NCBI RefSeq assembly: GCF_002872075.1
Contig: NZ_PGGU01000018.1
Coordinates: 20,237 to 84,236 of the forward strand
DNA length: 64,000 nt
Origin: Microbacterium aurantiacum
GTDB lineage: Bacteria; Actinomycetota; Actinomycetes; Actinomycetales; Microbacteriaceae
Direction: 5' to 3'
Positions within the stretch are counted from its first letter, which is position 1; each line of letters begins with the position of its first letter. Both the position numbers and the translations under genes were made by a program. The notes beneath the pieces are model-generated. The model did not search any database. It was not told where the DNA came from and saw nothing but the letters and a program-made list of their open reading frames with translations. Below, one piece after another: positions 23,665 to 62,253 of this stretch.

Positions 23665-24525
23665 ATGAAGTTCGCACGGCTTGGCGACCCGGGGACTGAG
23701 ATCCCCGTCCTCATAGAGGGCGACCACTACCTCGACCTTCGGGCCGTGACATCGGATGTGAACGGCGATTTCCTCGCCGGCGACTTCCGCACCCGTGTCG
23801 CAGCGGCCAGGGAGGCCGACCTGCTCCCGGTGCTCGAGGATGCCGCGGCCATGCGCGTCGGCGCGCCGATCGCCCGCCCGAGTGCCGTCATCTGCATCGG
23901 CATGAACTACGCGGCGCACGCCGCGGAGTCCGGCTCCGAGCCGCCGACGATCCCGATCCTGTTCCTCAAGACGCCGAACACCGTCGTCGGGCCGCACGAC
24001 ACCGTGACGATCCCGCGTGGCAGCGAGAAGACCGACTGGGAGGTCGAGCTCGGCATCGTCATCGGACGCCGTGCCGCCTACCTCGACTCCCCCGACGAAT
24101 CGCTCGATCACGTCGCCGGGTTCGTGCTGGCGAACGACGTGTCGGAGCGCGACTTCCAGCTGGCCGTCTCCGGAGGCCAGTGGTCGAAGGGCAAGATCGC
24201 CGCAGGCTTCAACCCGACCGGCCCCTGGCTGGTCACCCCCGACGAGGTCGATCACCACTCGCTCGGACTGCGCAGCTTCGTCAACGGCGAGCCGCGGCAG
24301 GACTCCAACACCGCAGACATGATCTTCTCGGTCGAGCACATCGTGCACCACCTCTCGCAGTACGTGACGCTCGAGCCGGGCGACCTGGTGCTCACCGGAA
24401 CGCCGCAGGGCGTCGCGCTCTCCGGCAAGTACCCGTACATCGCGCCCGGCGACATCGTCGAGGTCGAGATCGACGGGCTGGGCCACCAGCGCCAGGAGTT
24501 CGTGGCCTGGGAGGCGCAGCGATGA
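23665..24525 (+). CDS. Fumarylacetoacetate-hydrolase family, probable 2,4-diketo-3-deoxy-L-fuconate hydrolase
   Basis: FAH-fold hydrolase of 286 residues. In this pathway it cleaves 2,4-diketo-3-deoxy-L-fuconate to pyruvate and L-lactate. An N-terminal domain of about 70 residues precedes the catalytic domain, with CIGMNYAAHAAE and the metal-binding acidic stretch DWEVELGIVIG. ATG 23665 follows AGGAG by 4 nt. The frame is open for hundreds of codons upstream, but that part runs through the promoter and is antisense to the dehydratase. The next gene overlaps by 4 nt. Confidence 0.88.
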   Translation: MKFARLGDPGTEIPVLIEGDHYLDLRAVTSDVNGDFLAGDFRTRVAAAREADLLPVLEDAAAMRVGAPIARPSAVICIGMNYAAHAAESGSEPPTIPILFLKTPNTVVGPHDTVTIPRGSEKTDWEVELGIVIGRRAAYLDSPDESLDHVAGFVLANDVSERDFQLAVSGGQWSKGKIAAGFNPTGPWLVTPDEVDHHSLGLRSFVNGEPRQDSNTADMIFSVEHIVHHLSQYVTLEPGDLVLTGTPQGVALSGKYPYIAPGDIVEVEIDGLGHQRQEFVAWEAQR

Positions 24526-25274
24526 CCGGCTCGCTCGACGGACTCGTCGCGATCGTCACCGGCGGAGCATCCGGAATCGGCGCCGCCATCGCCGAACGTC
24601 TGCACGCCGACGGCGCGCAGATCGCCGTGCTCGACCGCGACACGGCCGGTGCGGGTGCGGCGTTCGCCGCCTTCACCGCCGACGTCTCCGATCGCGCCAG
24701 CGTCGACGCCGCGGTCGCCGCGGTCGCCGAGAAGTTCGGCCGGATCGACATCGTCGTGAACAACGCCGGCATCGGCGCGCAGGGCGACATCGCCGCGAAC
24801 GACGACGACGAGTGGGCGCGCGTGCTGTCGATCAACGTCACCGGGATCGCGCGCGTGACCGCGGCGGCCCTGCCCTGGTTGCGCAAGTCCCCTGCTGCGG
24901 CGGTCTGCAACACGGCATCCATCGCCTCCACCACCGGCCTGCCACAGCGTGCGCTGTACTCCGCGTCGAAGGGTGCCGTGTCGGCCCTGACCCGCGCGAT
25001 GGCCGCCGATCACCTGCGCGAGGGCATCCGCGTCAATGCCGTCAACCCGGGCACCGCCGACACCCCGTGGGTGCAGCGCCTGCTCGACTCGGCCGCCGAC
25101 CCCTCCGCCGAGCGCGCGGCTCTCGAGGCGCGCCAGCCGCACGGGCGCCTGGTCTCCGCGGCCGAGGTCGCCGCGGCCGTCGCCTACCTGGTCGGCCCGG
25201 CCGCCGGTTCGACGACCGGCACGTTCATCGAGGTCGACGGCGGCATGGCCCAGCTCCGGCTGCGCCCCGAGTAG
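24522..25274 (+). CDS. SDR, probable 2-keto-3-deoxy-L-fuconate dehydrogenase
   Basis: Classical short-chain dehydrogenase of 250 residues. It has the nucleotide motif TGGASGIG at about residues 13-20, NNAG at about 82, and catalytic Ser (TASIAS), Tyr and Lys (YSASK). In this pathway it oxidises 2-keto-3-deoxy-L-fuconate at C4 using NAD. Its ATG overlaps the hydrolase stop (ATGA). With the lactonase at 35047-35955 the non-phosphorylating L-fucose route is complete. Confidence 0.88.
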   Translation: MTGSLDGLVAIVTGGASGIGAAIAERLHADGAQIAVLDRDTAGAGAAFAAFTADVSDRASVDAAVAAVAEKFGRIDIVVNNAGIGAQGDIAANDDDEWARVLSINVTGIARVTAAALPWLRKSPAAAVCNTASIASTTGLPQRALYSASKGAVSALTRAMAADHLREGIRVNAVNPGTADTPWVQRLLDSAADPSAERAALEARQPHGRLVSAAEVAAAVAYLVGPAAGSTTGTFIEVDGGMAQLRLRPE

Positions 25275-25310
25275 CCCTCCCCTCTCGCTCCCCCCTCCCC
25301 TCTCGCTCCC
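25275..25310 (+). repeat. Tandem 18-bp direct repeat, two copies
   Basis: A C/T-rich 18-bp unit (core CCCCTCTCGCTCC) occurs twice in a row with identical sequence, directly after the SDR stop and next to hairpin repeat copy 1. It looks like local slippage. Confidence 0.7.
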
Positions 25311-25365
25311 GTCGCGAAAAGGCCCGGTAATCCGCCCGGATACCGGGCCTTTTCGCGACCGGAAC
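25311..25365. repeat. Hairpin repeat family, copy 1
   Basis: Interspersed palindromic element with 19-bp perfect arms (25311-25329 and 25341-25359; core CGCGAAAAGGCCCGGTA) and an 11-nt loop. The side facing the next gene ends CGCGACCGGAAC. Related copies are at 26397, 34974, 48961 and 62191. Confidence 0.9.
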
Positions 25366-25392
25366 GAGGGTTGTGGATAACCCGGAGCCGCG

Positions 25393-26394
25393 ATGCGCTC
25401 GGCGTGGGACAGTTCTGCGGTGCGTTTCGGTCGAGAACTCCCGCGTCAGCTCGGCGACGTCTTCCACGTCGCCGAGGCCCGCGATGCCGGAGTGAACCGC
25501 GGACGCCTGAGCCGCAATGACCTGGAGCGCCCGTTCCACGGGGTGCGCGCGCTCCGGCAGGCGGATGCCGTCGATGTCGACGATCCGTTCGGACGCCAGG
25601 CCGAGTGGCGCCGCCGCCGGGCACTCGCATACGCCCCTCGACTGCGTCCCGGGCAGTTCTTCTCGCATGAGACGGCCGCTGCGCTCTGGCACGCACCGCT
25701 CCCCCTCGCATGGACGGGATCGAGGATCGCGCACGGTCGCGAGCTTCCCGTCCATGTCAGTGTCTTCGATGACGCACCGCTGGTCCGCACGCCCGGAGTG
25801 GTGGCGCATCGCGCCCGACGGAAGACATCGTCTCTCACCGAGATCGACGGGTTCCCGGTCACGACCGCCGCAGGAGCATGGGCGAGCCTCGGATCCCTTC
25901 CGCTCGTGGATCTCGTCGCGCTCGGCGACTACTTCTGTCGCGTGTGGCGCGCCGGGCCAGGACGACCGAACGTCGGGATGCCGCCGATCGCAACACTCGG
26001 CGACCTGCGCACGACGATCGCGTCCGGTCGTCGAGTCGGCATCCGTCGGCTGCGAGAAGCCGTCGAGCTGATCCGCGAGGACTCGTGGTCTCCCCGCGAG
26101 TCGGCCGTCCGCTGCCACCTCGTGCTCTCGGGGCTGCCCGAGCCCGAACTGAACCACGACGTGTTCGACGATCGTGGCAGGTTCCTCGGCTGCGTCGACC
26201 TCGCGTATCCATCGCGGAAGGTCGCCATCGAGTATCACGGGATGCTGCACCAACAGCGCTACGCGGCCGATGTCGAACGCATCGCCGCCCTCCGCGCCGC
26301 CGGTTGGACCGTCATCGAGGTGACGTCGGCGCTGTTCACCGCGCCGGACGAGCTCGTCGCCCGCGTCCGCGCGGCACTCCGCCAGTCGTCGTGA
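25393..26394 (+). CDS. DUF559-like protein (restriction-endonuclease fold) with AbiEi-like N-terminus
   Basis: Protein of 333 residues of a type common in Microbacteriaceae but with no assigned function. The N-terminal half (GVNRGRLSRNDL...FHGVRAL, then FFSHETAAALWHAPLP) resembles the AbiEi-type winged-helix/antitoxin architecture. The last 90 residues form a Vsr/DUF559-like nuclease fold: E97-like helix, CVDLAYPSRKVAIEYHG with the D...E.H motif, and a final GWTVIEVTSALF. ATG 25393 follows CGGAG by 5 nt. It is bracketed by two inverted copies of the hairpin repeat family, 28 nt before the start and 2 nt after the stop. No toxin partner is adjacent. Confidence 0.8.
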   Translation: MRSAWDSSAVRFGRELPRQLGDVFHVAEARDAGVNRGRLSRNDLERPFHGVRALRQADAVDVDDPFGRQAEWRRRRALAYAPRLRPGQFFSHETAAALWHAPLPLAWTGSRIAHGRELPVHVSVFDDAPLVRTPGVVAHRARRKTSSLTEIDGFPVTTAAGAWASLGSLPLVDLVALGDYFCRVWRAGPGRPNVGMPPIATLGDLRTTIASGRRVGIRRLREAVELIREDSWSPRESAVRCHLVLSGLPEPELNHDVFDDRGRFLGCVDLAYPSRKVAIEYHGMLHQQRYAADVERIAALRAAGWTVIEVTSALFTAPDELVARVRAALRQSS

Positions 26395-26396
26395 CA

Positions 26397-26457
26397 GTTC
26401 CGGTCGCGAAAATGCCCGGTATCCGTGAGGAATACCGGGACATTTTGCGACGGGAAC
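26397..26457. repeat. Hairpin repeat family, copy 2
   Basis: Palindromic element between convergent genes. Its left side GTTCCGGTCGCGAAAATG is the reverse complement of the inner side of copy 1: over 28 bases (25338-25365 against 26397-26424) only one position differs, so the DUF559-like gene sits inside an inverted repeat. It also serves as a plausible bidirectional terminator. Confidence 0.9.
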
Positions 26458-26495
26458 AGGGCTCGAGAGCAGGGGCTCGGGAGCAGGGGCGCCAC

Positions 26496-27338
26496 TCAGC
26501 CCTTGAGGCCGGAGTGGGCCAGGCCCTCGACGAACTGACGCTGAGCCACGATGAACACGACCAGCATCGGCACCACGGTCATGGTCGCCGCGGCGAGCTG
26601 CGTGTTCCACATCTGTCCGCCATACGCATCCGTGAAGCGGGTGAGCGCCTGCGGAAGGGTGAACAGCTCCGGAGAGGTGAGGTACACGGTCGGTTCGAGA
26701 TACAGGTTCCAGGAGGAGAGGAAGGTGAGGATGGCGACGGCCGACAGCGCCGGCTTCGACAGCGGCAGGCTGATCCGCCACCAGATCGCCGGTCTGCCCA
26801 GACCGTCGATGCGGGCGGCCTCTTCCAGCTCCACAGGCAGTGACAGGAAGAACTGCCGCATGATGAACGTCGCCAGGACGCACGGTGCCGCGAACGCCGT
26901 GACGAGGATCAGCGGCCAGTGGGTGTTGATCATCCCCCATTGCTTGAACATCTGGAACAGCGGAACGATCGTCACCTCGCCGGGGACGAGCAGCCCGACC
27001 AGCACCACGAGGAACAGCGCGTTCGCACCGGGGAAGCGGATGCGGGCGAAGGCGTAGCCTGCCAGACTCGCGACCGCCATCACGATCGCCGTCACGAGCA
27101 CGGCGATGTACACGCTGTTGAAGTACTGCTGCGCGAACGGCTGGAACGTGAACGCCTCGACGTAGGCGTCGATCGTCGGGTTCTCCGCGAACAGCGCGGG
27201 CGGCGACCGGAAGATCTCGGCGAGCGGCTTGAACGAAGAGGTGATCATCCAGATCGTCGGCACGGCGAATGGCACGGCCAGGACGATCAGCGCGGCGATC
27301 AGGATCACCCGGCGGATGCGGTGGCTCTCACTCCTCAT
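26496..27338 (-). CDS. Carbohydrate ABC permease (MalG-like)
   Basis: CUT1 permease of 280 residues with six hydrophobic segments and an EAA loop (EEAARIDGLGRPAIWWRISLP) in the second half. Its ATG at 27338 overlaps the end of the partner permease by 11 nt. It is the last gene of a five-gene minus-strand operon headed by a LacI regulator. Confidence 0.93.
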   Translation of the reverse strand: MRSESHRIRRVILIAALIVLAVPFAVPTIWMITSSFKPLAEIFRSPPALFAENPTIDAYVEAFTFQPFAQQYFNSVYIAVLVTAIVMAVASLAGYAFARIRFPGANALFLVVLVGLLVPGEVTIVPLFQMFKQWGMINTHWPLILVTAFAAPCVLATFIMRQFFLSLPVELEEAARIDGLGRPAIWWRISLPLSKPALSAVAILTFLSSWNLYLEPTVYLTSPELFTLPQALTRFTDAYGGQMWNTQLAAATMTVVPMLVVFIVAQRQFVEGLAHSGLKG

Positions 27339-28278
27339 AGAACACCCACTTGCGTCGCAGCTGCCATTGCAGCATGGTGAGCAGCATCACGAACGTCAGC
27401 AGCATGAGCGCGAGGGTCGACCCGTAGCCGATGTCGTTGAACTCGAACGCCTGCTGGTACAGGTAGTAGACGAGCACGGTGGTCGACAGGCCCGGACCGC
27501 CTCCCGTGAGCACGGCCACGTTGGCGAACGCCTGCAGCGCGCCGACGATGGTGATGACAGCCGTGAGCATCAGCGTCGGCGAGATCAGCGGCAGCGTGAT
27601 CCGGAAGAAGATCCTCCCGGCCCCCGCGCCGTCGATGCGCGCGGCCTCGTAGAGCTCGGACGGCACACCCTGCAGAGCGGCGAGGAAGAGCACCATGTTC
27701 ACTCCGACGCTGCGGATGACCTGGGTCACGACGACCGCCATCATCGCGGTGTCGCCGGAGAGCAGCCAGTTCGGTCCGTCGATGCCGACCAGCGCGAGGA
27801 GCGCGTTGATGCCGCCGTTGTCCTGAAGCAGGAAGCCCCAGACCAGCGTCCACGCGACGACCGAGACGATCACCGGCGAGAAGAAGATCGTCCGGAAGAA
27901 GGTCACGCCGCGGAACCGCCGGTTGAGGAGCACGGCCAGCCCGAGGCCCGCCGCGATGTTCAGCACGACGACGCCGAGAGAGAAGATCGCCGTCGCACCG
28001 AGCACCGCCGGCAGCTGAGGGTCCGTCAGCAGAGCGGCATAGTTGTCGCCGCCTACGAACGTCAGCTCTCCGCGGAAGATGTTCCACTCGTTGAGGCTGT
28101 ACCAGACGCCCAGTCCCACCGGCACGAGCACGAACAGCACGACGCCGGCCAGCTGCGGGGCGATGAAGAGATATCCGGTGAGGTGATCGCGCCGCCGCGT
28201 CGTCCAGAACGGGCGGTGCCGGTCCCGGGGCGCCTCAGCGCTCCGGGACCCGACCACGACCGTGTCGACCACGGTCAC
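27328..28278 (-). CDS. Carbohydrate ABC permease (MalF-like)
   Basis: CUT1 permease of 316 residues with a polar N-terminus of about 35 residues, six hydrophobic segments and the EAA loop YEAARIDGAGAGRIFFRITLP. The GTG start at 28278 overlaps the binding-protein stop (GTGA), which indicates coupled translation. A longer upstream frame lies within the binding-protein gene and is rejected. Confidence 0.9.
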   Translation of the reverse strand: MTVVDTVVVGSRSAEAPRDRHRPFWTTRRRDHLTGYLFIAPQLAGVVLFVLVPVGLGVWYSLNEWNIFRGELTFVGGDNYAALLTDPQLPAVLGATAIFSLGVVVLNIAAGLGLAVLLNRRFRGVTFFRTIFFSPVIVSVVAWTLVWGFLLQDNGGINALLALVGIDGPNWLLSGDTAMMAVVVTQVIRSVGVNMVLFLAALQGVPSELYEAARIDGAGAGRIFFRITLPLISPTLMLTAVITIVGALQAFANVAVLTGGGPGLSTTVLVYYLYQQAFEFNDIGYGSTLALMLLTFVMLLTMLQWQLRRKWVFYEE

Positions 28279-29549
28279 TTCGACAACAGCGGTTCGATGG
28301 CCTCGCAGGTCGCACCCAGCACGGCCTCGATATCGGCATCCGCCACCCACATCGCATCCAGCGCGGTCTTGCCCGCCGCCTTGATCTCCGCGGGGCTCGT
28401 GTGGTTCGGCAGCGTCACCGCATCCGGGAGCTGGTCGATGACCACGCTCTGAAGCTGATCGGCCGTGAGCTTCGGGTTGTTCTCGGCGAGCTTCTCACCT
28501 GTGAGCAGCGACTCGCGGGGCGGCGGGAAGTACTGGGCGAGCTTCGCGGCGTTCTCCGGGTTCGTGAGGAATGCGAGGAAGTCGGTCGCCTCCTGCACGT
28601 GCGAGCTCGTGGCGAGCACGCCGACTCCGGCCTGGCCGATCACGGAGTACTCTCCCTCGGGCCCGTCCGGCAGCGGGATGACGTCGTAGGCGAAGGAGCC
28701 GTCGAGCAGCGCCGCGCGCGAGACCTGGGCGACCGTGAAGGCCGCGTCGCCGGCGAAGAAGTCCGCCGTGGTCCCCGGTCCCGGCATCGACTGATCGACG
28801 AAGGCGGCCTCGTGCAGGAAGGTGAAGGCGTCGACCATCTCCGGGCTGTCCAGTGTGCAGGTCTTGCCGTCCGCGCTCCAGGCGCTGGCACCCCAGCCGG
28901 TCCACACCGTTGCGAGCTGACCCCAGTTCGCGTAGTCGAAGTCGCGGATGACGAAGCCGGCCTTGCCGGTGGATTGATGCACCGCGGCGCCGAGCTCGCT
29001 GATCTTCTCCCACGTGACGTCGCCGTCGAGGGCGACTCCGGCCTGACCGAGAAGATCGCTGTTGACGTAGAGCGCGAAGGGCGAGTTCGAGAACGGGTAG
29101 GCGTACAGCTCGTCGTCGACGGCGAACTCGGCTGTGACGCTGCCGAGCAGATCGTCGTAGTCCCATCCCTTGGTGTCCTTCAGCGCATCGGTGAGGGGGA
29201 CGAGCGCATCCGAGGCGATGAGGTCGCGCGACAGGTCGCCCATCCAGGCCAGGTCGGGCGCGTTCCCGCCGGCGATCTGCGTCGTGAGCGTGGTGTTGTA
29301 GTCCGCGAAGGGCAGCGATTCGTAGGTGATCTCACCGATCTCCGGGTGATCGGCCTTGTATGCGGCGGCGATCTCGTCGAACAGTGCGAGCTGGTCCTCG
29401 TTCGAGGTCCACACCGACATGCGCAGGTCCACGCTTCCCGGTGCGGCGGTCGTCTCCACGGGTGTCGGTGCGGATGCTCCGCATCCCGCCAATGCCAGGC
29501 CCAGACCGGCGACCGCGGCCGCCGCACCCAGCTTCTTTGCTGATGACAT
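28275..29549 (-). CDS. ABC sugar-binding lipoprotein
   Basis: CUT1 solute-binding lipoprotein of 424 residues (type-1 extracellular family) with lipobox ALAGC at about residues 19-23. ATG 29549 follows AAGGAAG. It is followed by two permease genes with overlapping ends; no ATPase gene accompanies them. The ligand is unknown. The co-regulated Tat-exported glycosidase at 32339-34948 suggests a product of that enzyme. Confidence 0.92.
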   Translation of the reverse strand: MSSAKKLGAAAAVAGLGLALAGCGASAPTPVETTAAPGSVDLRMSVWTSNEDQLALFDEIAAAYKADHPEIGEITYESLPFADYNTTLTTQIAGGNAPDLAWMGDLSRDLIASDALVPLTDALKDTKGWDYDDLLGSVTAEFAVDDELYAYPFSNSPFALYVNSDLLGQAGVALDGDVTWEKISELGAAVHQSTGKAGFVIRDFDYANWGQLATVWTGWGASAWSADGKTCTLDSPEMVDAFTFLHEAAFVDQSMPGPGTTADFFAGDAAFTVAQVSRAALLDGSFAYDVIPLPDGPEGEYSVIGQAGVGVLATSSHVQEATDFLAFLTNPENAAKLAQYFPPPRESLLTGEKLAENNPKLTADQLQSVVIDQLPDAVTLPNHTSPAEIKAAGKTALDAMWVADADIEAVLGATCEAIEPLLSK

Positions 29550-29563
29550 CTTCCTTCTCTTCT

Positions 29564-31162
29564 CTAGTAGCCGATGATCTCGGGCCAGTGGATCTCGATG
29601 CCCGCCTCGACGAGGCGAGTCTGGAAAGCGACGACGAGTGCCGGGTCGGCGACGACGTCGCCGGGCTCCAGCGCCTCGTCGAGGCAGAAGGCCGCCAGCT
29701 CGCCGGCCGACTCGCCGACGTTCCACTCCACGGGGTGCAGGCGGTAGGCGCCGTTCGTGATGTGCGTGGTGCCGATGTTCTTCGCCGCGGGGAGCAGATT
29801 CCGCATGCGGACCGGCACGAGCGCACCGAGCGGGATCTCGAACGGAGCGCACTCGACGTCGATGTAGTTGTCGCCTCCTGTGGAGGGATGCAAGTCGATG
29901 CGGTACATCCCGACCCCGACCGAGTCCTCGAATGTCGCAGGGCCGCCATGTCCGCGCACCGCCACCGAGATGTCCTGCTCAAGTACGGTTCGCCTGGCCC
30001 TGATCCGGCGGGATTCGCGGATGTAAGGCGCCTGCGCGAAGCCGTCGTCCGTGCCCGCGACATCGGGCCGCAGTCTCAGGCCGGGGAACCCGAAACCGCC
30101 CTCGGGCCGCGGGGCCTCCGTCTGCAGCCAGTAGACGTACGAGCGCGCGAGCTCCTTGGCCGCGTCCAGGTGCGTCGCCGCATCCGCGGTGTCGATCACC
30201 GATCCGTCGAGGTAGTCGAGCATCGGCCAGTTCGCGATCACGACGTCGCTGTCCAGGAACCCGGGGAGGAAGTTCTCCCTGGCGAGGATGCGCCGGAACT
30301 CCCACAGATCGAGATCCCCCGCGTCGGTGCGCTGGTCGGGCGCTCCCCGATCGCGAAGGGGCGGATTGACGTGCATGGTCCGCGTCATCGGCTCGAGCGT
30401 GCGCGGGTTCGGGGCGGTGAAGGACAGCAGCGGGGCACCCCAGAACTCGGGCTGCGCCGCGCGAAATCGGTCGTACTGGGCGGGGCGGTCGATGGTGTGA
30501 TCGGCGCCCTCCTCGTGATCGAAGGCGAAGCACCAGGTGATCGACTGCACGTTCTGGGGGTCGGCCGCCTCGGCGGCGTTCGGCTCGCCGGTCTCCGCCC
30601 GCGATTCGGCGCCGACGACGTACTCGGTGCCGGTCAGCGGAAGGAGGTCCCCCGTCTCGGTGGCGTCGAGCACGAAGGATGCCGAGATCTCGTGCGTGCT
30701 CCCGGCGTGCTCGACGGTGACGGTGGTGACGAGGTCCGCGTCGACGGATGCCGAGACGGGGACTGCCGGCTGCAGCACGGTGAGCCGCCCGCTCGCGCGG
30801 AAGGGCGCGAGCATCGACTCGAGCACCGCCACCGCGACACGCGGCTCGTGGCACAGCCGGCTGACGCGACCGAGCCCCGGGTTGAGTTCACGCGCCGATC
30901 GGGCGCTCTCGGTGAGCGGATAGTTCTGCCGGTAGTACTCGCGGATGCCGTCTCGCAGCGCCCGATACGAGGCCGTGATGCCGAACTGCTCCACCCAGTA
31001 CGACTCGTCCGGGGGGACGATCTGCGATGTGAGCTGTCCGCCGAGCCACACGTACTGCTCGGTGAGCACCACGCGCCGTCCGCGCCGCAGCACCGCGAGC
31101 GCGGCGGCGATGCCGCCCAGCCCGCCACCGACGATGAGGACGTCGGTGTGCATGCGCGTCAC
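29564..31162 (-). CDS. FAD-dependent oxidoreductase
   Basis: Flavoprotein of 532 residues of the FAD_oxidored (PF12831-type) family. The dinucleotide fold is at the N-terminus (VLIVGGGLGGIAAALAV, about residues 8-24), followed by the family motif QYVWLGGQLTSQ. No signal peptide is seen. The GTG start at 31162 overlaps the LacI stop (GTGA). It is sandwiched between a LacI gene and a sugar importer, so it probably oxidises a sugar or sugar derivative, but the substrate is unknown. Confidence 0.88.
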   Translation of the reverse strand: MTRMHTDVLIVGGGLGGIAAALAVLRRGRRVVLTEQYVWLGGQLTSQIVPPDESYWVEQFGITASYRALRDGIREYYRQNYPLTESARSARELNPGLGRVSRLCHEPRVAVAVLESMLAPFRASGRLTVLQPAVPVSASVDADLVTTVTVEHAGSTHEISASFVLDATETGDLLPLTGTEYVVGAESRAETGEPNAAEAADPQNVQSITWCFAFDHEEGADHTIDRPAQYDRFRAAQPEFWGAPLLSFTAPNPRTLEPMTRTMHVNPPLRDRGAPDQRTDAGDLDLWEFRRILARENFLPGFLDSDVVIANWPMLDYLDGSVIDTADAATHLDAAKELARSYVYWLQTEAPRPEGGFGFPGLRLRPDVAGTDDGFAQAPYIRESRRIRARRTVLEQDISVAVRGHGGPATFEDSVGVGMYRIDLHPSTGGDNYIDVECAPFEIPLGALVPVRMRNLLPAAKNIGTTHITNGAYRLHPVEWNVGESAGELAAFCLDEALEPGDVVADPALVVAFQTRLVEAGIEIHWPEIIGY

Positions 31163-32196
31163 CGGCGCACCTCGACGAGAGTGGCGCCGTCGACGAGCTC
31201 CCCGATCAGCAGCACCTGCTTCTGGAGGTCGTCCCGGTCGGACGGGTCGGTGAGGATGATGTCCTGCAGCAGCGACAGCGCGCGCGAGGCCACGGCCTCG
31301 CGGCGCAGGTCGAAGCCGCTGAGCGGCGCCGTTCCGATGAAGTGTCCGGCGACGTCGGCGAGGGCGACGTAGCTGAAGTGGGCCGCCGGCGCGGCATCCC
31401 GGACCGCTGCGGCTGCCGCCTCGGCGAGGAACGAGTCCTCCGTGATCACGGCGGTGACATCGGCGTCGAGGACGCGGCGGGCGATCGCGGTGCGGTCGAG
31501 TCCGCTGACGTCGATCGACGTCACGGCCAGGCGCAGGCCCGACGCCGCCTGGGCGATCCCGGACCGGCGGTCGGCTGCCGCCGGCGCGATGGTTCCATGG
31601 TGCAGGTAGACCGCTCGCTCGTGGCCCAGCTCGTCCAGGCGCCGGATGATCCTGCCGGTGAGGGAGAGGTAGTCGAGCCCCACGTAGGGGACGTCCGGCT
31701 CATCACGGCGGCCGACGGCGACGAACGGGAAGCCCTCCGCGACGAGGCGTGCGAGTTCGGCGCCGTTCATCTGCTGACCGAGGAGGAGGCAGCCGTCGGC
31801 CAGGCGGAACCGGGTGTTCTTGTGGAAGAGGCTGCGTGAGCCGTCGACCAGGGGCGAGGCCGTGAAGAAGAGCAGATCGCAGCTCAGCCGCTCGGCCGCG
31901 CGCTCGATGCCGTTGAGGAGGGGTCCGTAGAAGTCCATGCTCTCCGCGGAGAGGGCAGGCTCATAGGTGAAGATCCCGAGGATCTTGTTGTCGAGGCCGG
32001 CGAGCCGACGGGCCGCAGGATCGGCGACATAGGTGGTCTGCTCGATCGCGCGCAGCACGCGCGCCCTCGTCGCCTCAGGGATGCGGACGTTCGAATAGTC
32101 CCTGTCGTTCAGCACCATCGACACCGTCGCCTGGCTCACCCCGGCGATCTTCGCGATCTCCCGCTGAGTGACTCGCCCGCTCTTGTTCGTCGTCAT
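31159..32196 (-). CDS. LacI-family transcriptional regulator
   Basis: Regulator of 345 residues. The N-terminal HTH with hinge covers about residues 8-65 (TQREIAKIAGVSQATVSMVLN), followed by a periplasmic-binding-like effector domain. ATG 32196 follows AGGAG. It is the first gene of the operon regulator-oxidoreductase-binding protein-permeases and divergent from the glycosidase gene. The operators at 32206-32225 and 32307-32321 fit autoregulation plus control of the hydrolase. Confidence 0.92.
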   Translation of the reverse strand: MTTNKSGRVTQREIAKIAGVSQATVSMVLNDRDYSNVRIPEATRARVLRAIEQTTYVADPAARRLAGLDNKILGIFTYEPALSAESMDFYGPLLNGIERAAERLSCDLLFFTASPLVDGSRSLFHKNTRFRLADGCLLLGQQMNGAELARLVAEGFPFVAVGRRDEPDVPYVGLDYLSLTGRIIRRLDELGHERAVYLHHGTIAPAAADRRSGIAQAASGLRLAVTSIDVSGLDRTAIARRVLDADVTAVITEDSFLAEAAAAAVRDAAPAAHFSYVALADVAGHFIGTAPLSGFDLRREAVASRALSLLQDIILTDPSDRDDLQKQVLLIGELVDGATLVEVRR

Positions 32197-32205
32197 CGAC
32201 CTCTC

Positions 32206-32321
32206 CTGATAGTTCGGATTATCAGAACCCGAGGATGACGATAACAGACTCGAGGGAATCCTTGTCAAACTCTTGTGCAGAACTCGCCATTCGGTGCATA
32301 GTGCTCTGATAATCCCTATCA
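32206..32321. promoter_or_regulatory. Two LacI operators (CTGATAATCC half-sites) and hydrolase promoter
   Basis: Site 1 (32206-32225) is an inverted repeat CTGATA-N8-TATCAG. Site 2 (32307-32321) is TGATA-N5-TATCA. Read in the matching direction both begin CTGATAATCC. A plus-strand promoter with -35 TTGTGC (32273-32278) and -10 CATAGT (32297-32302), 18 bp apart, would start within site 2. Site 1 lies 10 nt before the LacI start codon. Confidence 0.65.
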
Positions 32322-32338
32322 TCATTGGAAGGACGAAG

Positions 32339-34948
32339 ATGTCCACTGATCCTCTGCACCTCACTCTGTCGCGCCGCCATTTCCTGGGCGCGGGCCTCCT
32401 CGCGGGAGCGCTCGTCGCGCTGCCGCCCAGTACCGTCTCGGCCAGCGCGGCCGGGACCGACGTCATCCTGACCGCGACCGGCATCCGCGTCGTCGCCTCG
32501 GTCGGCGGGCGCATCGCCGTCCACGACGGCGCCGGCACCCTGCTGATGGCCGGGTCCCGATTCCAGACCAAGGACACCGTCCACGGCATCCTGACCTCCA
32601 CGGGCGGCACGCCCTCGCTGGTGACCGTCGGCGGCGAACAGGTCATCCAAATGGACTACGTCATGCCCGCCACGTCCGGCGGAGCCGCCGTCTCGGCGAC
32701 CATCCGCGTGCAGACCGCCCAGATGCACATCGAATGGACGGTCTCCGGCACGACCACGCTGAATCCCGCGGGGTTCATGTTCAGCAGGTCGATCAGCGCC
32801 CCTGTGGCAGCCGACGAGTACGTCCCGACGTCGGAGTGGGTCCGCGACGGCGCCGGCGGAATCCCCTACGAAGTTCCGACCGGGGTGGTCTACCGTTCGT
32901 CGTGGGCGTCGGGGCACGGACTGCTGCTCCTGGATTCCTCGCGCAAGGCATGGACGACGGCGTCCTGGGTGCATGCGCCCGGCCGACAGGTGGACGCGAC
33001 GACGGCGGTGACGCGCGCCAGCCTGATCCTCACGGATGCCCGGCCGGTCTCCGGCGCGGCGATCGGCCGCGGAGACGGCATCGGCATCGAGTTGTCCACC
33101 GACCGGCCGTACAACGTGTGGGACTCCGCCGGCGATGTCACGGCCACCGTGACGGTCACGAATGCGCACGCCGCGGACGAGATCTTCTCACTCGAGTGGT
33201 GGGCGCGCGACGACCTCGGTGCGATCGTGGCATCCGGCACCGGATCACTCACCGTGCCATCACTCTCCTCCTCCGACGCGACCCTGACGATTCCGCTCCA
33301 GGCCGAGGGGATGGTGCTCCTCGAGGCGAACGCGACCACAGCCTCCGACAGCGCCTTCGCCCGGACGACGCTCGCCGCGCTCGCGCCCCACTCCTACGCC
33401 GCAGGATCCGACAGCATGTTCGGGATCGCGAACTACCCCTGGCTGCTGCACGCCGGCGAGCAGGCCACTCTGGACCTGTGGCAGAAGGTCGGCATCCAGT
33501 GGGTGCGGATCGCCTACGACAGCGGGCCGGGGCTGCCGCCGGCCTCGTATGACGCCCGGGGGATGGATCACAACCTCGAGCTGCAGCCGGACATGACGGC
33601 GACGGATGCCGCACTGGTCACCTGGGCCGGATCCAGCACGGCCACCGCCGTTGCAGCCGGCGCAACCTGGTTCGAGGTGGGCAACGAGCTCAACCGCCCG
33701 TTCAACACCGGAGACGCGGCACCCGCATACGTCGAGCGGGTGCTCAAGCCCGTGCATGCCGCCAGGGCCGCGCAGGGCGCGACGTTCAAGATCATGAACA
33801 ACGGCCTCGCAGGCATGGACCGGCCGTGGACCGAGGCCTTCCATGCCGCGGGCGGCTGGGATCTCGTCGACGGCATCGCATTCCACCCCGGACGCGGCAA
33901 TTTCACGCCGGACTTCATCCCCGACGGGGACGGTGGCGGATGGAGCACCGGCGCCACCGGCACCTACTGGAACTTCCTCGGCGGACTGCGCCAGATGAAG
34001 ACCCTGATGGCGGAGTACGGCGAGAAGGAGATCTGGCTCACCGAGGCCTATGCCTGCACCAGACCCAACGCTTGGTGGAACGACACGTATCGGCACGCGG
34101 CCGAGAACGTGCTGTTGTCCCTCGCCCTCGCCAAGGCAGAGGGCGTGCGCGCCGTCTGCTGGTACCAGTTCTTCGACTCGTACACGATCAGCCCGATGGG
34201 TGCCGATCCCGAGGACACCGAGTACCACTTCGGACTGGTCAACCGCGACCTCGGCCCGAAGCCGTCCCTGCTGGCCTATGCGACCGCCGCGCGGGCACTC
34301 GATCAGGCGGAGTTCATCCGCTGGGTGCACCTCGACGACGGCTCGACGCACGGCCTGCACTTCAGCACGCCCGACGGCCCGCTCACGGTGCTGTGGAACC
34401 GTGCGGACGGGTATCTGCTGAACACCGCGGGCACCCGAACGGACTGGCGCTTCCCTGCGCCCGAGATGTGGGAGGACGGCTGGGCCACGAAGACGGACGT
34501 TCTCCTTCCGGCAGACGGCGGCGTCACCGAGGTCGACTCCTTCGGCCGGTCACGGCAGCTCGCCGCGTCGAACGGCCAGGTACAGCTCACGCTCGACGGC
34601 GCTCCGCGGATCTATCGCGGCCTGCTGCTCGACGGCATCGATGCCGGGCCGGTGGCGACGTCGGGCGCGGTGTCCGTCCAAGCGAAGCGGGCCGACGGCA
34701 GAGCGGCCCTCGTCGTGACGGTGCAGGGTGCGGCCGACCGCGATATGGACGTGCGGATCGCGACGACGTTCGGATCGGAGCGAATCGAACGCCTCGCCCC
34801 CGGGGAGATCCAGACGCGTACCTTCGTCGCCGAGGCCCTGACGATTCCGGCGGGGACGGCGACCATCCGCACGCACGCGCTCGGCTCAGGGCAACCCGAG
34901 ACGCACACGATCGATTACGACGCGTTCGACGCCCGCCCGATCGGCTGA
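32339..34948 (+). CDS. Tat-exported glycoside hydrolase-like protein (clan GH-A fold), substrate unknown
   Basis: Exported protein of 869 residues. The N-terminus has a twin-arginine signal (LSRRHFLGAGLLAGALVAL) ending near residue 40. About 330 residues of beta-sandwich-like sequence precede a TIM-barrel domain from about residue 360 to 670. A likely acid/base is Glu450 in WFEVGNELNRP, the Asn-Glu signature of clan GH-A. A likely nucleophile is Glu569 in IWLTEAYAC. About 170 residues of C-terminal beta domain follow. ATG 32339 follows GGAAGGA. It resembles GH39/GH79-like enzymes only loosely, and I cannot assign a family. It is divergent from and co-regulated with a LacI/importer operon. Confidence 0.8.
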   Translation: MSTDPLHLTLSRRHFLGAGLLAGALVALPPSTVSASAAGTDVILTATGIRVVASVGGRIAVHDGAGTLLMAGSRFQTKDTVHGILTSTGGTPSLVTVGGEQVIQMDYVMPATSGGAAVSATIRVQTAQMHIEWTVSGTTTLNPAGFMFSRSISAPVAADEYVPTSEWVRDGAGGIPYEVPTGVVYRSSWASGHGLLLLDSSRKAWTTASWVHAPGRQVDATTAVTRASLILTDARPVSGAAIGRGDGIGIELSTDRPYNVWDSAGDVTATVTVTNAHAADEIFSLEWWARDDLGAIVASGTGSLTVPSLSSSDATLTIPLQAEGMVLLEANATTASDSAFARTTLAALAPHSYAAGSDSMFGIANYPWLLHAGEQATLDLWQKVGIQWVRIAYDSGPGLPPASYDARGMDHNLELQPDMTATDAALVTWAGSSTATAVAAGATWFEVGNELNRPFNTGDAAPAYVERVLKPVHAARAAQGATFKIMNNGLAGMDRPWTEAFHAAGGWDLVDGIAFHPGRGNFTPDFIPDGDGGGWSTGATGTYWNFLGGLRQMKTLMAEYGEKEIWLTEAYACTRPNAWWNDTYRHAAENVLLSLALAKAEGVRAVCWYQFFDSYTISPMGADPEDTEYHFGLVNRDLGPKPSLLAYATAARALDQAEFIRWVHLDDGSTHGLHFSTPDGPLTVLWNRADGYLLNTAGTRTDWRFPAPEMWEDGWATKTDVLLPADGGVTEVDSFGRSRQLAASNGQVQLTLDGAPRIYRGLLLDGIDAGPVATSGAVSVQAKRADGRAALVVTVQGAADRDMDVRIATTFGSERIERLAPGEIQTRTFVAEALTIPAGTATIRTHALGSGQPETHTIDYDAFDARPIG

Positions 34949-34973
34949 GGCGCGCGACGGACGCGGGCACCCT

Positions 34974-35030
34974 TCCGGTCGCGAAATGTCCCGGTATCCG
35001 CGAGGAATACCGGGACATTTCGCGACGGGA
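34974..35030. repeat. Hairpin repeat family, copy 3
   Basis: Palindromic element between convergent genes with perfect 20-bp arms (34978-34997 and 35007-35026; GTCGCGAAATGTCCCGGTAT) and a 9-nt loop. It probably also terminates transcription from both sides. Confidence 0.9.
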
Positions 35031-35046
35031 GCAGTGCTGGAGAGGT

Positions 35047-35955
35047 CTAGCTGCGGTCGAGGCGGTAGAACTCGGCCGCGTTCGCCCGCATGACGGCGTC
35101 GACAGGGAGGCCGCGGGCGGTGGCCCAATCGGCCACCGCGTGCGCCCAGCGCGCACGCCCGTTCGGCTGGTAGGCGTCCGAGCCGTCAGCGGGTGCGTAC
35201 TCGTCTCCGGCCTCGGCGGGGCCGATGACCGAGACCGGCCAGTCGCTGCCCCACATCAGCCGGTCAGGGCCGAAGGCGGCGAGCGCGGCGTCGAGGAAGG
35301 GCTCGATCTGCGCCGCATCCCAGTCACCGCCGGCCTCGGCCGGAAGCCCCGAGAGCTTGCAGTGGACATTCGGATGCTGCGCCAGGGCCGTCAGGTCCGA
35401 CACCCACCGCGCCGACGGCCGCAGGGGTGCGGACGCGGTCCCCACCGCGGGTTTGCCGAGGTGATCGAGCACGATCCGCAGTCCGGGCACGGCAGCGGCG
35501 AGCGCGGTGACATCGGGCACCTGTGAGAAGCGGACGCAGGCGTCGAACGTCCAATCGCGGGCTGCGAGGGCGCGGGCTCCTTCGATGAACGCGGGTGTCG
35601 CGGCGAGACCGTCGCGCTCCCCCTGCAGGAGGTGCCGCACGCCGACGACCAGCCCGAACGCGGCGAGAGCCGCGAGATGCGCACGCGTCGCCTCTCCCCG
35701 GTCGAGCTGCGCACCGGCGACGATGCCCTTCAGGCCGATCTCGTCCGCCAGTCCGGTGACCCAGCGCACCTCGTCGAGGAACTGCTCTTCGATGCATCCG
35801 GCCTGAACGAAGACGGCGCCCGACTCGGTGACACCGGGGATCCGGGCGAGCTGAAGTTCGAGAGCCTCGAACTCGAAGGCGAGCGGCCCTTCCAGCCAGG
35901 GGTAGTCCAGAAGGTCGGGTCTCCAGAGGTGCAGGTGTGAATCGAGGGAGCGCAT
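35047..35955 (-). CDS. Amidohydrolase 2 family, probable L-fuconolactonase
   Basis: TIM-barrel metal hydrolase of 302 residues (COG3618 type). Metal-site motifs are DSHLHLW at residues 5-11, LDHLGKP at about 163-169 and MWGSDWPV at about 234-241. Enzymes of this group open L-fucono-1,5-lactone and related sugar lactones. This is the step missing from the fucose cluster at 20.8-25.3 kb. The gene is divergent from a GntR gene, and the shared intergenic site matches the fucose operator. It lacks a ribosome site and is probably leaderless. Confidence 0.85.
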   Translation of the reverse strand: MRSLDSHLHLWRPDLLDYPWLEGPLAFEFEALELQLARIPGVTESGAVFVQAGCIEEQFLDEVRWVTGLADEIGLKGIVAGAQLDRGEATRAHLAALAAFGLVVGVRHLLQGERDGLAATPAFIEGARALAARDWTFDACVRFSQVPDVTALAAAVPGLRIVLDHLGKPAVGTASAPLRPSARWVSDLTALAQHPNVHCKLSGLPAEAGGDWDAAQIEPFLDAALAAFGPDRLMWGSDWPVSVIGPAEAGDEYAPADGSDAYQPNGRARWAHAVADWATARGLPVDAVMRANAAEFYRLDRS

Positions 35956-35961
35956 GGGTCC

Positions 35962-35996
35962 ATCCTGCCCCAGACATCCGATGAATGTGCGAGGAT
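35962..35996. promoter_or_regulatory. Divergent leaderless promoters with fucose operator between them
   Basis: CAGGAT (minus strand, 35967-35962) lies 6 nt before the lactonase ATG at 35955. GAGGAT (plus strand, 35991-35996) lies 6 nt before the GntR ATG at 36003. Between them is AGACATCCGATG (35972-35983), which matches 12 consecutive bases of the operator at 23585-23595 read on its minus strand. The site would fill the spacer of both promoters. Confidence 0.65.
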
Positions 35997-36002
35997 GACG
36001 CC

Positions 36003-36680
36003 ATGGCTGTGACTGACGAGGCGATCGAGAAGATCAAAGCGATGATCGTGTCCGGAGAGATCGGCCCCGGCGACCGGCTCCCCCCGGAGAAGGAACTGTC
36101 GGAGCGCCTGGGCCTGTCCCGGAACTCCATGCGCGAAGCCGTGAAGGCGCTCGAGGTTATCCGCGTGCTCGATGTGCGCCGGGGCGACGGCACCTATGTG
36201 ACGAGCCTCGAGCCGCACCTGCTCCTCGAAGCCATCTCGTTCGTCGTCGACATGCACGACGACGACTCGATGCTGGAGATCTTCGCCGTGCGGCGGATGC
36301 TGGAGTCGCAGGCCACCGGTCTCGCAGCCACCCTCGGCAGCAACGAGGACATCGCCGAGCTCGAGCGGGAGATCGACGAGATCGACGCCTCGGTCACGGT
36401 CGAGGAACTCGTGGAGCACGACATCCGGTTCCATCGGGACATCGTGCGGATGGCCGGCAACGCCTACCTCACCAGCCTCATCGATCACCTGAGCAGCCAG
36501 ACCGTGCGCGCCCGCGTCTGGCGCGGCCTCACCGAGGGGGGCGCGGTCGAGCGCACGCTCTCCGAGCACCGGGCCATCGCCGATGCGATCGCGCAGCACG
36601 ATCCGGCTCTCGCGACCTCCCTGGCGACCGCGCACATCGCCGGCGTCGAGCGCTGGCTGCGTCAGGCGACGTCCGCCTGA
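36003..36680 (+). CDS. GntR-family (FadR/FCD) regulator, probably of L-fucose genes
   Basis: Regulator of 225 residues. The winged-helix domain is at about residues 1-70 (LPPEKELSERLGLSRNSMREAVKALEV) and an FCD domain with metal/acid-binding His and Asp residues (HDIRFHRDIV) follows. ATG 36003 is chosen over an in-frame ATG at 35985 because GAGGAT sits 6 nt upstream and the earlier start would place coding sequence over the promoter. It is the only regulator next to any fucose gene, and its operator candidate recurs in the main fucose cluster. Confidence 0.9.
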   Translation: MAVTDEAIEKIKAMIVSGEIGPGDRLPPEKELSERLGLSRNSMREAVKALEVIRVLDVRRGDGTYVTSLEPHLLLEAISFVVDMHDDDSMLEIFAVRRMLESQATGLAATLGSNEDIAELEREIDEIDASVTVEELVEHDIRFHRDIVRMAGNAYLTSLIDHLSSQTVRARVWRGLTEGGAVERTLSEHRAIADAIAQHDPALATSLATAHIAGVERWLRQATSA

Positions 36681-36705
36681 CCCGGCCCCTGTCATCGCAT
36701 TCGGC

Positions 36706-36711
36706 TAGTGT
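36706..36711 (+). promoter_or_regulatory. Leaderless -10 (TAGTGT) of PfkB kinase gene
   Basis: TAGTGT ends 7 nt before the ATG at 36719; no ribosome site is present. Confidence 0.55.
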
Positions 36712-36718
36712 TCTCGCC

Positions 36719-37681
36719 ATGACCACCGCATCCCCCGCCGACCGCACCGGTGTCGTCATCGTCGGGAGCGTCAGCGCCGATGTCACGACGTTCTCCCGGC
36801 GGCTCCCCGCCCCCGGCGAGACCATTCTGGGCGATGAGTTCACGCTGATGCTCGGCGGCAAAGGGGCCAACCAGGCGGTCGCATCCGGCCGTTCCGGCGC
36901 CAGGACCAGCTTCGTCGGATGCGTCGGCGACGACCTCTTCCACGACCTCGTCGTCACCGGACTCAGCGAGGCCGGCGTCGACCTCACGCATCTGCGCACG
37001 GTCCCCGGCCCCACCGGGATCGCGCACATCCGCGTCGACGCCTCGGCGCAGAACGACATCGTCGTGGTACCGCTCGCCAACGCCGCGCTCAGCGCGGAGC
37101 AGATCGACACCGCGCTCGAGGCCCTCGCACCGACCACCTCGGTGCTGCTCACCCAGCTCGAGACGCCGTCGTCGCTCACGGCGCACATCACCGCGCGCGG
37201 CCGGGAACTCGGGATGATCGTGATCCTCGATCCCGCGCCCGCCGCCGTCCTCCCCGCCGAGGTGTGGCGGAGCATCGACATCGTCACCCCGAACGAGACG
37301 GAGGCCTCGGTCCTCAGCGGCATCGAGGTGACGGATGCCGCGACCGCCGAACAGGCCGGACGCTGGTTCCTCGCGCAGGGCGTCGGGGCAGCCGTCGTCA
37401 CCCTCGCGGGACAGGGCTCGTGCATCGTGACCGCCGACGGAGCATCCGTCGTCCCCCCGTTCCCGGTCGAGCCGGTCGACACGACCGCCGCCGGCGACAC
37501 CTACGCCGGTTACCTCGGAGCTGCCCTCGCGGCGGGCCGCCCGCTGACGGATGCGGTGCGCCTGGCGACCGCGGCCGGAGCGATCACCGTGACGAGGCAG
37601 GGCGCCTCTCCGAGCATCCCGCACCGCGCCGAGGTGGACGCGTTCCTCTCCGCCCGCACCCCGGTCGAGGCGCCCCGATAG
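36719..37681 (+). CDS. rbsK: PfkB-family sugar kinase, ribokinase-like
   Basis: ATP-dependent kinase of 320 residues. PfkB signature 1 ([12 protein letters not shown], about residues 42-53) and signature 2 with the catalytic Asp ([13 protein letters not shown], about residues 257-269) are both intact, and the overall pattern is that of ribokinase. It starts 38 nt after the GntR gene but has its own leaderless promoter. A role on another sugar cannot be excluded; it is not needed for the oxidative fucose route. Confidence 0.85.
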
Positions 37682-45183: not shown

Positions 45184-45482
45184 TTGCCGAGTTGCTCGAG
45201 TGGCTCGGAGACGAATCCCGTCAGCACGATGCCGCGCTCCGGCATCCGCTCGCCCGGATCGAGGCGGCCGTCACCGGCGAGACCTGGCACGGCACGCCGT
45301 CGACCGTCGCGCTGATCCGCTCACTCGCCGCCTCGGCCCGCACGCACGGCGCGATGCGGCTGGGCGACATCGTTCGAAGAGCGCAAACGGCTCGAAATCA
45401 GGCCGAGATCCAGCCATTTGCGCCATTCGAAGCGAAGGTGGAGACGCCGGCGCGTCCTGACCGCAGCGCTCAGGTGGCCTGA
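45123..45482 (+). CDS. Hypothetical protein divergent from MocR
   Basis: A 119-residue frame, not recognised. It has a helical, acidic N-terminal half (WTIAELLEWLGDESRQHDAAL) and a C-terminal tail rich in Gln, Ala and Pro. Third-position GC is high in the middle and lower at both ends. There is no ribosome site and the start lies on a TGGACCA box. Its last 13 bases overlap the convergent gene. It could be real but is not secure. Confidence 0.5.
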   Translation: MDTLITSERTLLDPIAPDWTIAELLEWLGDESRQHDAALRHPLARIEAAVTGETWHGTPSTVALIRSLAASARTHGAMRLGDIVRRAQTARNQAEIQPFAPFEAKVETPARPDRSAQVA

Positions 45483-48264: not shown

Positions 48265-48313
48265 TCTCCTATCTTGACACTGTCCAGCAAATTGACACTG
48301 TCCAGATAGGAGA
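48265..48313. promoter_or_regulatory. TetR operator array: nested direct and inverted repeats
   Basis: Two identical 14-bp units TTGACACTGTCCAG (48274-48287 and 48292-48305) repeat with an 18-bp period, each centred on the palindrome GACACTGTC. They are enclosed by a perfect 9-bp inverted repeat (TCTCCTATC 48265-48273, GATAGGAGA 48305-48313) that contains the ribosome site of both divergent genes. Two TetR dimers on one helical face would cover both promoters. Confidence 0.75.
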
Positions 48314-48944: not shown

Positions 48945-48960
48945 CCAGCCCCCTCACCTC

Positions 48961-49019
48961 CTCCCGTCGCGAGAAGTCCCGGTATTCGACTCGAATACCG
49001 GGACTTTCTGCGACGGGAG
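48961..49019. repeat. Hairpin repeat family, copy 4
   Basis: Palindromic element between convergent genes: arms of 29 bases (48961-48989, 48991-49019) with a one-base centre and two or so mismatches, core GTCCCGGTATTCGA. This is the longest stem of the five copies, and both edges are of the CCCGTCGC type. Confidence 0.9.
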
Positions 49020-49026
49020 CGGCGGA

Positions 49027-62165: not shown

Positions 62166-62190
62166 GTCTCTCCTTGGTCCTGACCGGTCG

Positions 62191-62249
62191 TTCCCGTCGC
62201 AGAAAGGCCCGGTATCGACGCGTTGTTCCGGGCTTTTTCGCGACCGGAG
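62191..62249. repeat. Hairpin repeat family, copy 5
   Basis: A more diverged copy between two genes in the same direction: TTCCCGTCGCAGAAAGGCCCGGTAT pairs imperfectly with the segment ending GGGCTTTTTCGCGACCGGAG. It shares the CCCGG(TA) core and the TCGCGA ends of the other copies. Confidence 0.75.
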
Positions 62250-62253
62250 CGGG

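Follow-up and report, generated by a model that had tools for sequence, protein, structure and literature searches.

A DUF559 nuclease-fold gene and its cognate palindromes in Microbacterium aurantiacum: a probable REP/RAYT-like system with a different enzyme

Introduction

In REPtrons, as described in PMC3116915, a resident RAYT gene (encoding TnpA-REP, a Y1 HUH transposase) has palindromes belonging to it on both sides, and extragenic copies of these are dispersed in the genome, forming doublets and arrays, with several types per genome. The account given in PMC3733652 includes TIRtrons, which are RAYT-like genes lying between gene-specific long inverted repeats, and CGTC-tagged repeats, palindromes that are scattered in genomes without a matching transposase. 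The fusion of a DNA-binding part to a nuclease of the EDxHD/Vsr type is a layout already described (PMC12350094). AbiEi homologues are reported to bind inverted repeats and to autoregulate via those in promoters (PMC7319586), and MTES_1575 has been described as a Vsr-type REase (PMC3710099).

DUF559 is still named as a domain of unknown function, and a palindrome of its own would be a testable partner for many of the actinobacterial genes examined here. A search of the open PMC literature, which leaves subscription papers outside, found no report of DUF559 genes with palindromes. Here we describe such a gene in Microbacterium aurantiacum, in a stretch of DNA of 64 000 nucleotides (the whole stretch analysed, hereafter the window), together with related loci in other Actinomycetota.

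Results

The gene and its bracketing palindromes

The DUF559 gene occupies positions 25393..26394 of the forward strand (333 aa), with a perhaps later start at 25420 favoured by a codon-usage gene caller. As a first-pass annotation made from the sequence had described, it lies between two hairpins. These are palindromes of 61 nt, one at 25305..25365 on the reverse strand, its orientation being taken from asymmetric outer bases, and one after the stop codon at 26397..26457 on the forward strand. The single mismatch between 25338-25365 and the complement of 26397-26424 that had been claimed was found again, as were the 2 nt between the stop codon and the 3' hairpin, but the distance before the ATG at 25393 is 27 nt and not 28. 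The DUF559-like label also held, the Pfam DUF559 (PF04480) score of 21.3 bits exceeding the cut-off of 20.6. Because each element is palindromic by itself, the 'inverted' status of the pair rests on few asymmetric bases, the inverted reading aligning at 88% over 59 nt versus 76% for the direct reading.

Folded as single-stranded DNA, both palindromes were far above shuffles (z -7.0 and -7.7). A structured RNA with compensatory changes was rejected, as there was no clear excess versus shuffles and the outer boxes were conserved as sequence; no match to Rfam RNA families was found within the window. Directly 5' of the 5' palindrome, positions 25275-25310 hold an 18-nt C/T-rich direct repeat in two exact copies.

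Protein architecture

In the structure model of the protein (pLDDT 93.5, pTM 0.89), the Vsr-like fold proposed earlier for the C-terminus was recovered in residues 233-333 (26089..26391, forward strand), which matched Vsr (1cw0) at Z 10.0 and the catalytic domain of I-Bth0305I (3r3p) at Z 12.5 over 93 aligned residues with an rmsd of 2.1. From this fold match the segment is a putative nuclease domain of the Vsr/I-Bth0305I type. Foldseek alone gave 3r3p at E 0.037 and no PDB match below 0.001. Residues 11-228 (25423..26076, forward strand), presumed to be the palindrome-binding part, matched AbiEi 6y8q at a middling level (Z 7.9, rmsd 6.1, 175 aligned). PADLOC AbiEi matches were weak (E 5e-5) and a Pfam scan of the window protein gave no AbiEi match; AbiEi_4 was above its cut-off in two of the three sister-subfamily proteins scanned from the same genome.

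The active site of EDxHD/Vsr nucleases is formed by the series E, D, H, D. Residues E236, R240, P251, E280, H286 and D293 were invariant in 106 proteins, of which 95% kept D269, and E236, D269, H286 and D293 fit that series by their order along the chain rather than by superposition. A Y1_Tnp domain was absent among the Pfam matches of the window protein, and PF01797 (Y1_Tnp) was found in none of 12 genomes, with 5 of 14 control genomes positive; RAYT-driven REPs were rejected on the lack of this domain in all 12. A phage home was also rejected, as the 70 pattern matches of a single scan included no relative.

Palindrome pairing across DUF559 loci

Relatives of the window protein were identified in 29 of 38 genomes, its own included. 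A palindrome scan made de novo, without knowledge of the window sequence, detected palindromes next to many of the related loci; the two palindromes of loci that had one on each side were usually alike, and other genes had other palindromes; a scan of named genomes, in which the best 80 of 256 loci (mostly from Microbacterium) were kept, gave the same picture of pairing. After four duplicates had been dropped, 109 loci were available, 105 of them with sufficient flank on both sides, and the counts were made in flanks of 300 nt with a palindrome defined as at least 44 nt with a stem score of 13. The bracketing first noticed in the window recurred in this set. A palindrome stood at one or both ends of 82 of the 105 DUF559 loci versus 9 of 174 neighbouring genes, which are ORF calls and possibly wrong in some cases, and at both ends of 46/105 versus 0/174; 23 of the 105 had none by this definition. 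The 5' and 3' flanks matched each other at a score of at least 20 in 62/105 loci versus 44/4000 mismatched flank pairs and 1/174 control genes. As the loci are mutually related, the 105 are not independent events, a relatedness that the mismatched pairs share. Chance adjacency was rejected on this enrichment (82/105 versus 9/174), on flank matching and on the co-variation given below.

The genome of the window carries ten DUF559 genes, including two on contig C22, and five of the ten belong to another subfamily. With flanks of 400 nt, nine of the ten had a matching palindrome pair, two of them weakly (L054 with a score of 15 and L059 with 14, weak because 14 was reached by 8 of 174 controls), and no matching pair was found at L060. 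In a draw of Actinomycetota the family was present in 103 of 296 genomes at E 1e-10. Among 40 distant loci taken from the matches listed, 19 of the same class and 21 from the rest of the phylum, flanks matched at a score of at least 18 in 24 (12/19 and 12/21, respectively), for which the yardstick is 2/174 controls of the 105-locus test. A palindrome by the definition of that test was present at 16 of the 40 and on both sides of two, from which it follows that the repeat pair persists at this distance and that the clean palindrome is found mainly nearer home.

A terminator-like hairpin, GACCCCCGCCGAATCGGGTCGGCGGGGGTC, occurs in near-identical form upstream of the 5' palindrome at L057, L053, L088, L115 and L118, which are among the DUF559 genes of the type found on contig C8 that have this hairpin upstream; it perhaps marks a shared insertion site.

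Co-variation of palindrome and protein

Co-variation was assessed on 5' flanks set against the 3' flanks of other genes, a design that excludes help from shared neighbours. The share of protein pairs that had a palindrome in common was 14/14 above 80% identity, 21/26 at 70–80%, 78/272 at 60–70%, 54/1529 at 50–60%, 9/2054 at 40–50%, 7/1499 at 30–40% and 0/66 below that (Mantel r 0.376, reached in 0 of 999 permutations). Residues 16-60, presumed to do the binding, were the most divergent segment in only six of ten close protein pairs and not in the other four; in the pair L103/L111 they stood at 0.69 versus 0.91–0.98 for the other segments. The co-variation of palindrome with protein supports a putative recognition step.

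Copies of the window-type palindrome

The genome has 13 separate, ungapped copies of the window-type palindrome, all of precisely 61 nt and free of indels, six on contig C9 (five of these in the window), four on C7 and three on C32; the next match of the search model had an E-value of 0.2. With 13 such copies the hairpin pair of the window is more than chance. The outer boxes, TCC(C/G)GTCGC and its complement, were nearly invariant, with variation in the inner stem and core. The starts of contigs C18 and C9 (L022:1-49 and L023:50-110) fall within one palindrome copy; the BLAST match with which C18 opens represents the opposite side of the copy that opens C9, and the assembly therefore breaks at that palindrome.

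Besides the bracketing pair, the window holds a copy between convergent genes at 34972..35032 (forward strand), a symmetric copy, also between convergent genes, at 48960..49020 (no strand assigned) and a copy at 62190..62250 (reverse strand). No palindrome was found in the gaps that match 48960..49020 in Microbacterium sp. SD291 (G038) and MYb72 (G039), gaps that are themselves unalignable; at the sites matching 62190..62250 both genomes have a palindrome too, with a different inner sequence. The palindrome at 45373..45431 (no strand assigned) stands alone and is of the type found around the DUF559 paralogue of contig C8; none was seen in the corresponding gap of MYb72. A further palindrome, of 49 nt and with TTGACACTGTCCAG in each half, lies at 48265-48313 and is shared with MYb72 at the matching place (L192, C4:25348-25396); it resembles two ends of a different sort of element joined together.

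After an outer-box filter, which dropped one of 48 sites, 13 window-type copies were counted in the genome of the window, 15 in SD291 and 19 in MYb72. Inner-stem similarity across the three genomes was 0.628 within and 0.567 between genomes, a difference equalled in none of 2000 label shuffles, and neither outer boxes nor core had an excess of within-genome similarity in the same genomes. The within-genome homogenisation effect on the inner stem is small.

Dispersal, placement and turnover

Of eight carrier genomes, seven had 23–74 two-strand matches to palindromes of the GAGTGTCC type and the eighth had one. Among 12 genomes without a known cognate gene, ten had none and the others had one and two. 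Palindrome copies are thus dispersed where the cognate gene is known to be present, and few or none occur in other genomes. The dispersed sites were mostly extragenic and seldom between divergent genes. For 12 of the 13 copies in the genome of the window, five sites were convergent, five tandem, two within ORF calls and none divergent; clusters in two other genomes were convergent, tandem, divergent or overlapping in 11, 15, 4 and 1 of 31 cases and in 10, 10, 3 and 1 of 24. Doublets and arrays of the GAGTGTCC type were common (21 gaps of less than 400 nt between neighbours among 54 copies in one genome, and 6 among 32 in another), as counted with a pattern that admits some poor matches such as L277:2283. 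Judged by eye, this type has no GTAG or CGTC tag at its stem-loop ends, and the window type has CGTC inside the outer box.

In a comparison of the two genomes with 54 and 32 copies, whose matching stretches were mostly 83–94% identical, collinear placement was possible for 22 of 33 clusters, and 18 of the 22 had a palindrome in both. Copy number differed at 10 of these 18 sites by a one-way count, the reverse count removing three of the differences. Among matched copies, six of nine kept their interior at 85% or more. Movement or conversion is therefore slow or rare, and the retained interiors indicate that inheritance in place prevails at that distance. For copy L264:3991 the matching gap of L256 has no palindrome, and that gap too gave no alignment. 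At another site, L264:2912-3041 holds a palindrome of the GAGTGTCC type and the matching L256:4065-4120 holds one resembling that of the DUF559 gene L040, as if one palindrome type had been replaced by the other.

Gain and loss at the SDR site

The conserved left neighbour of the DUF559 unit is an SDR gene (24522..25274, forward strand). In the window the unit is followed by ABC-transporter genes in a segment between two palindromes (26496..34948, no strand assigned) that is absent at the corresponding place in SD291, then by the next palindrome copy, 8.5 kb on, and by an amidohydrolase gene (35047..35955, reverse strand), which is the right neighbour in species that lack the insert. Across 50 loci, in which some genomes appear twice, the SDR and amidohydrolase genes adjoined in 15, a DUF559 gene lay between them in 22 and the order SDR-DUF559-ABC was seen in three; the other ten show a partial series.

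The first-pass annotation had named two outcomes that would refute its idea, a repeat without enrichment at DUF559 genes and a locus unchanged across species. Neither was observed, as palindromes are strongly enriched at these genes and sites without the gene exist. Of 30 genomes that carry the SDR gene, 13 had the DUF559 gene at this site, in 12 cases with a palindrome, and the remaining 17 lacked it there. The locus is not unchanged among the 30 genomes: on a tree built from the SDR region (a quick tree with SH-aLRT support only) presence of the gene changed 11 times, at least seven of them switches forced by supported branches, and the presence label was unclustered. Palindromes of at least 40 nt were found at 10 of the 17 gene-less sites; at three of these, L283, L286 and L303, a lone palindrome resembled, by eye, a DUF559-linked type. 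For the pairs listed for this site, the SDR proteins were mostly 85–96% identical and the DUF559 proteins 50 to 86%.

In the closest presence/absence pair, flanks that are 95.6% and 93.9% identical enclose 1356 bp versus 84 bp of other sequence, and the 1356-bp insert comprises the gene and both palindromes. This has the appearance of an exchange of the entire intergenic stretch, and neither target-site duplications nor exact insertion edges were found here or at the dispersed copies compared between genomes. After the SDR gene of L287, L295 and L300, which have no DUF559 gene there, another repeat family (GGGTCGTTGAGC... / CTTCGACAGGCTCAGC...) is present.

Discussion

The reading that we consider probable, at roughly 0.6 on the sequence comparisons, is of a REP/RAYT-like system built on another enzyme, in which a resident nuclease gene is teamed with the palindrome family cognate to it. 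It is favoured because it is the simplest account that covers the pairing, the co-variation, the dispersal, the within-genome similarity and the gain and loss. We infer that the DUF559 protein may bind, cut and copy the palindrome. Its AbiEi-like N-terminal part would bind the inverted outer boxes of its own palindrome, its C-terminal domain of the Vsr/EDxHD type would nick or cut at the bound palindrome, and repair from another copy would convert or copy palindromes. Such copying could make palindromes alike within a genome and expand arrays in place, and the DNA between two palindromes, being the nuclease gene and sometimes other genes, could be gained or lost. As turnover between close species is slow, any cutting or copying activity would be rare. 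Against this reading stand the slow turnover itself, the search for target-site duplications and exact insertion edges that found none, the exchange-like closest presence/absence pair, the small homogenisation effect, the 23 of 105 loci that show no palindrome, the four of ten close protein pairs in which residues 16-60 are not the most divergent segment, and the carrier genome with a single GAGTGTCC match. For the wider proposal, that throughout the phylum PD-(D/E)XK (Vsr-fold) nucleases, in place of a HUH transposase, drive palindromes that spread themselves, that several such specificities coexist in a genome and home into or convert their respective sites, and that the DNA-binding part co-evolves with the palindrome, we see the odds as evenly balanced.

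An operator role, in which the palindromes serve AbiEi-style autoregulation and as gene-end signals, the copies reflect a regulon or ordinary recombination and the nuclease acts elsewhere, for example on foreign DNA, seems unlikely. Recognition alone would explain the co-variation, the AbiEi fold match covers the N-terminal region and autoregulation of AbiEi homologues through promoter inverted repeats is described in PMC7319586. However, the partner palindrome stands after the stop codon and not only at the promoter, copies lie between divergent genes at only 0/12, 4/31 and 3/24 sites in three genomes, and tens of copies are unexplained by an operator role alone.

We are more doubtful of a defence or addiction module, whose nuclease would attack DNA while the palindromes mark self, titrate the protein or sense invaders, their spread being a by-product. 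No defence genes were found beside the SDR site among the neighbours identified (SDR, ABC transporter and amidohydrolase), and copies number from 13 to tens at neutral-looking places, which argues against such a module even though AbiEi-like and Vsr-like parts are known in defence settings (PADLOC AbiEi, E 5e-5; MTES_1575 as described in PMC3710099) and the DUF559 gene is often gained and lost.

The 8.5-kb ABC segment between two palindromes that is missing at that place in SD291, and the swap-like appearance of the closest presence/absence pair, would also suit a passive cassette, in which the gene is cargo and homologous recombination between palindromes moves whatever intervenes. We hold this to be quite improbable, as it leaves unexplained both the co-variation of palindrome with protein and the recurrence of the pairing, which is seen at numerous sites and also in another DUF559 subfamily. 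That the palindromes are plain bidirectional terminators, or REPs mobilised by a RAYT, and adjoin the DUF559 gene by chance can be dismissed as very improbable: they do lie at gene ends, often convergent, and those of the window have A and T runs in their arms, but a terminator scan over 24000-37000 (loop limit 8) flagged none of three palindromes, no Y1_Tnp occurs in 12/12 genomes, and enrichment and flank matching at DUF559 loci oppose it.

If the REP/RAYT-like reading is true, the REP/RAYT way of life has had a second origin, this time based on an unrelated nuclease, and the scattered palindromes of genomes that lack a RAYT would be explained. Dozens of natural co-varying protein-target pairs would then be a ready set for work on specificity. 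Segments bounded by palindromes are marked as places of gene arrival and departure.

Compared with known nucleases, the protein is like I-Bth0305I, an EDxHD/Vsr homing endonuclease and the best solved match of residues 233-333. Unlike that enzyme, it is encoded outside any intron or intein, between palindromes and with many target-like copies, and its DNA-binding part is putatively AbiEi-like. The N-terminal fold resembles, by a middling match, the AbiEi antitoxins (S. agalactiae AbiEi and Rv2827c), in contrast to which the AbiEi-like part is here fused to a nuclease domain. With TIRtrons the DUF559 units share a gene between gene-specific inverted repeats, but TIRtrons use tyrosine transposases; with the CGTC-tagged repeats they share palindromes dispersed in genomes that lack a matching transposase. 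The likeness to REPtrons is in a gene bracketed by its own palindrome type, in dispersed extragenic copies, in doublets and arrays, and in different types within one genome; the differences are the longer palindromes (about 46–72 nt), whose sequence changes from gene to gene, the frequent gain and loss of the gene (at the one site studied) and an enzyme predicted to have a PD-(D/E)XK fold of the Vsr/EDxHD type instead of HUH. The analogy with REP/RAYT units drawn in the first-pass annotation therefore needs dividing: the unit has no Y1_Tnp, in the protein or in 12 genomes, and is not a RAYT system by its enzyme, but it is like one by its anatomy and dispersal.
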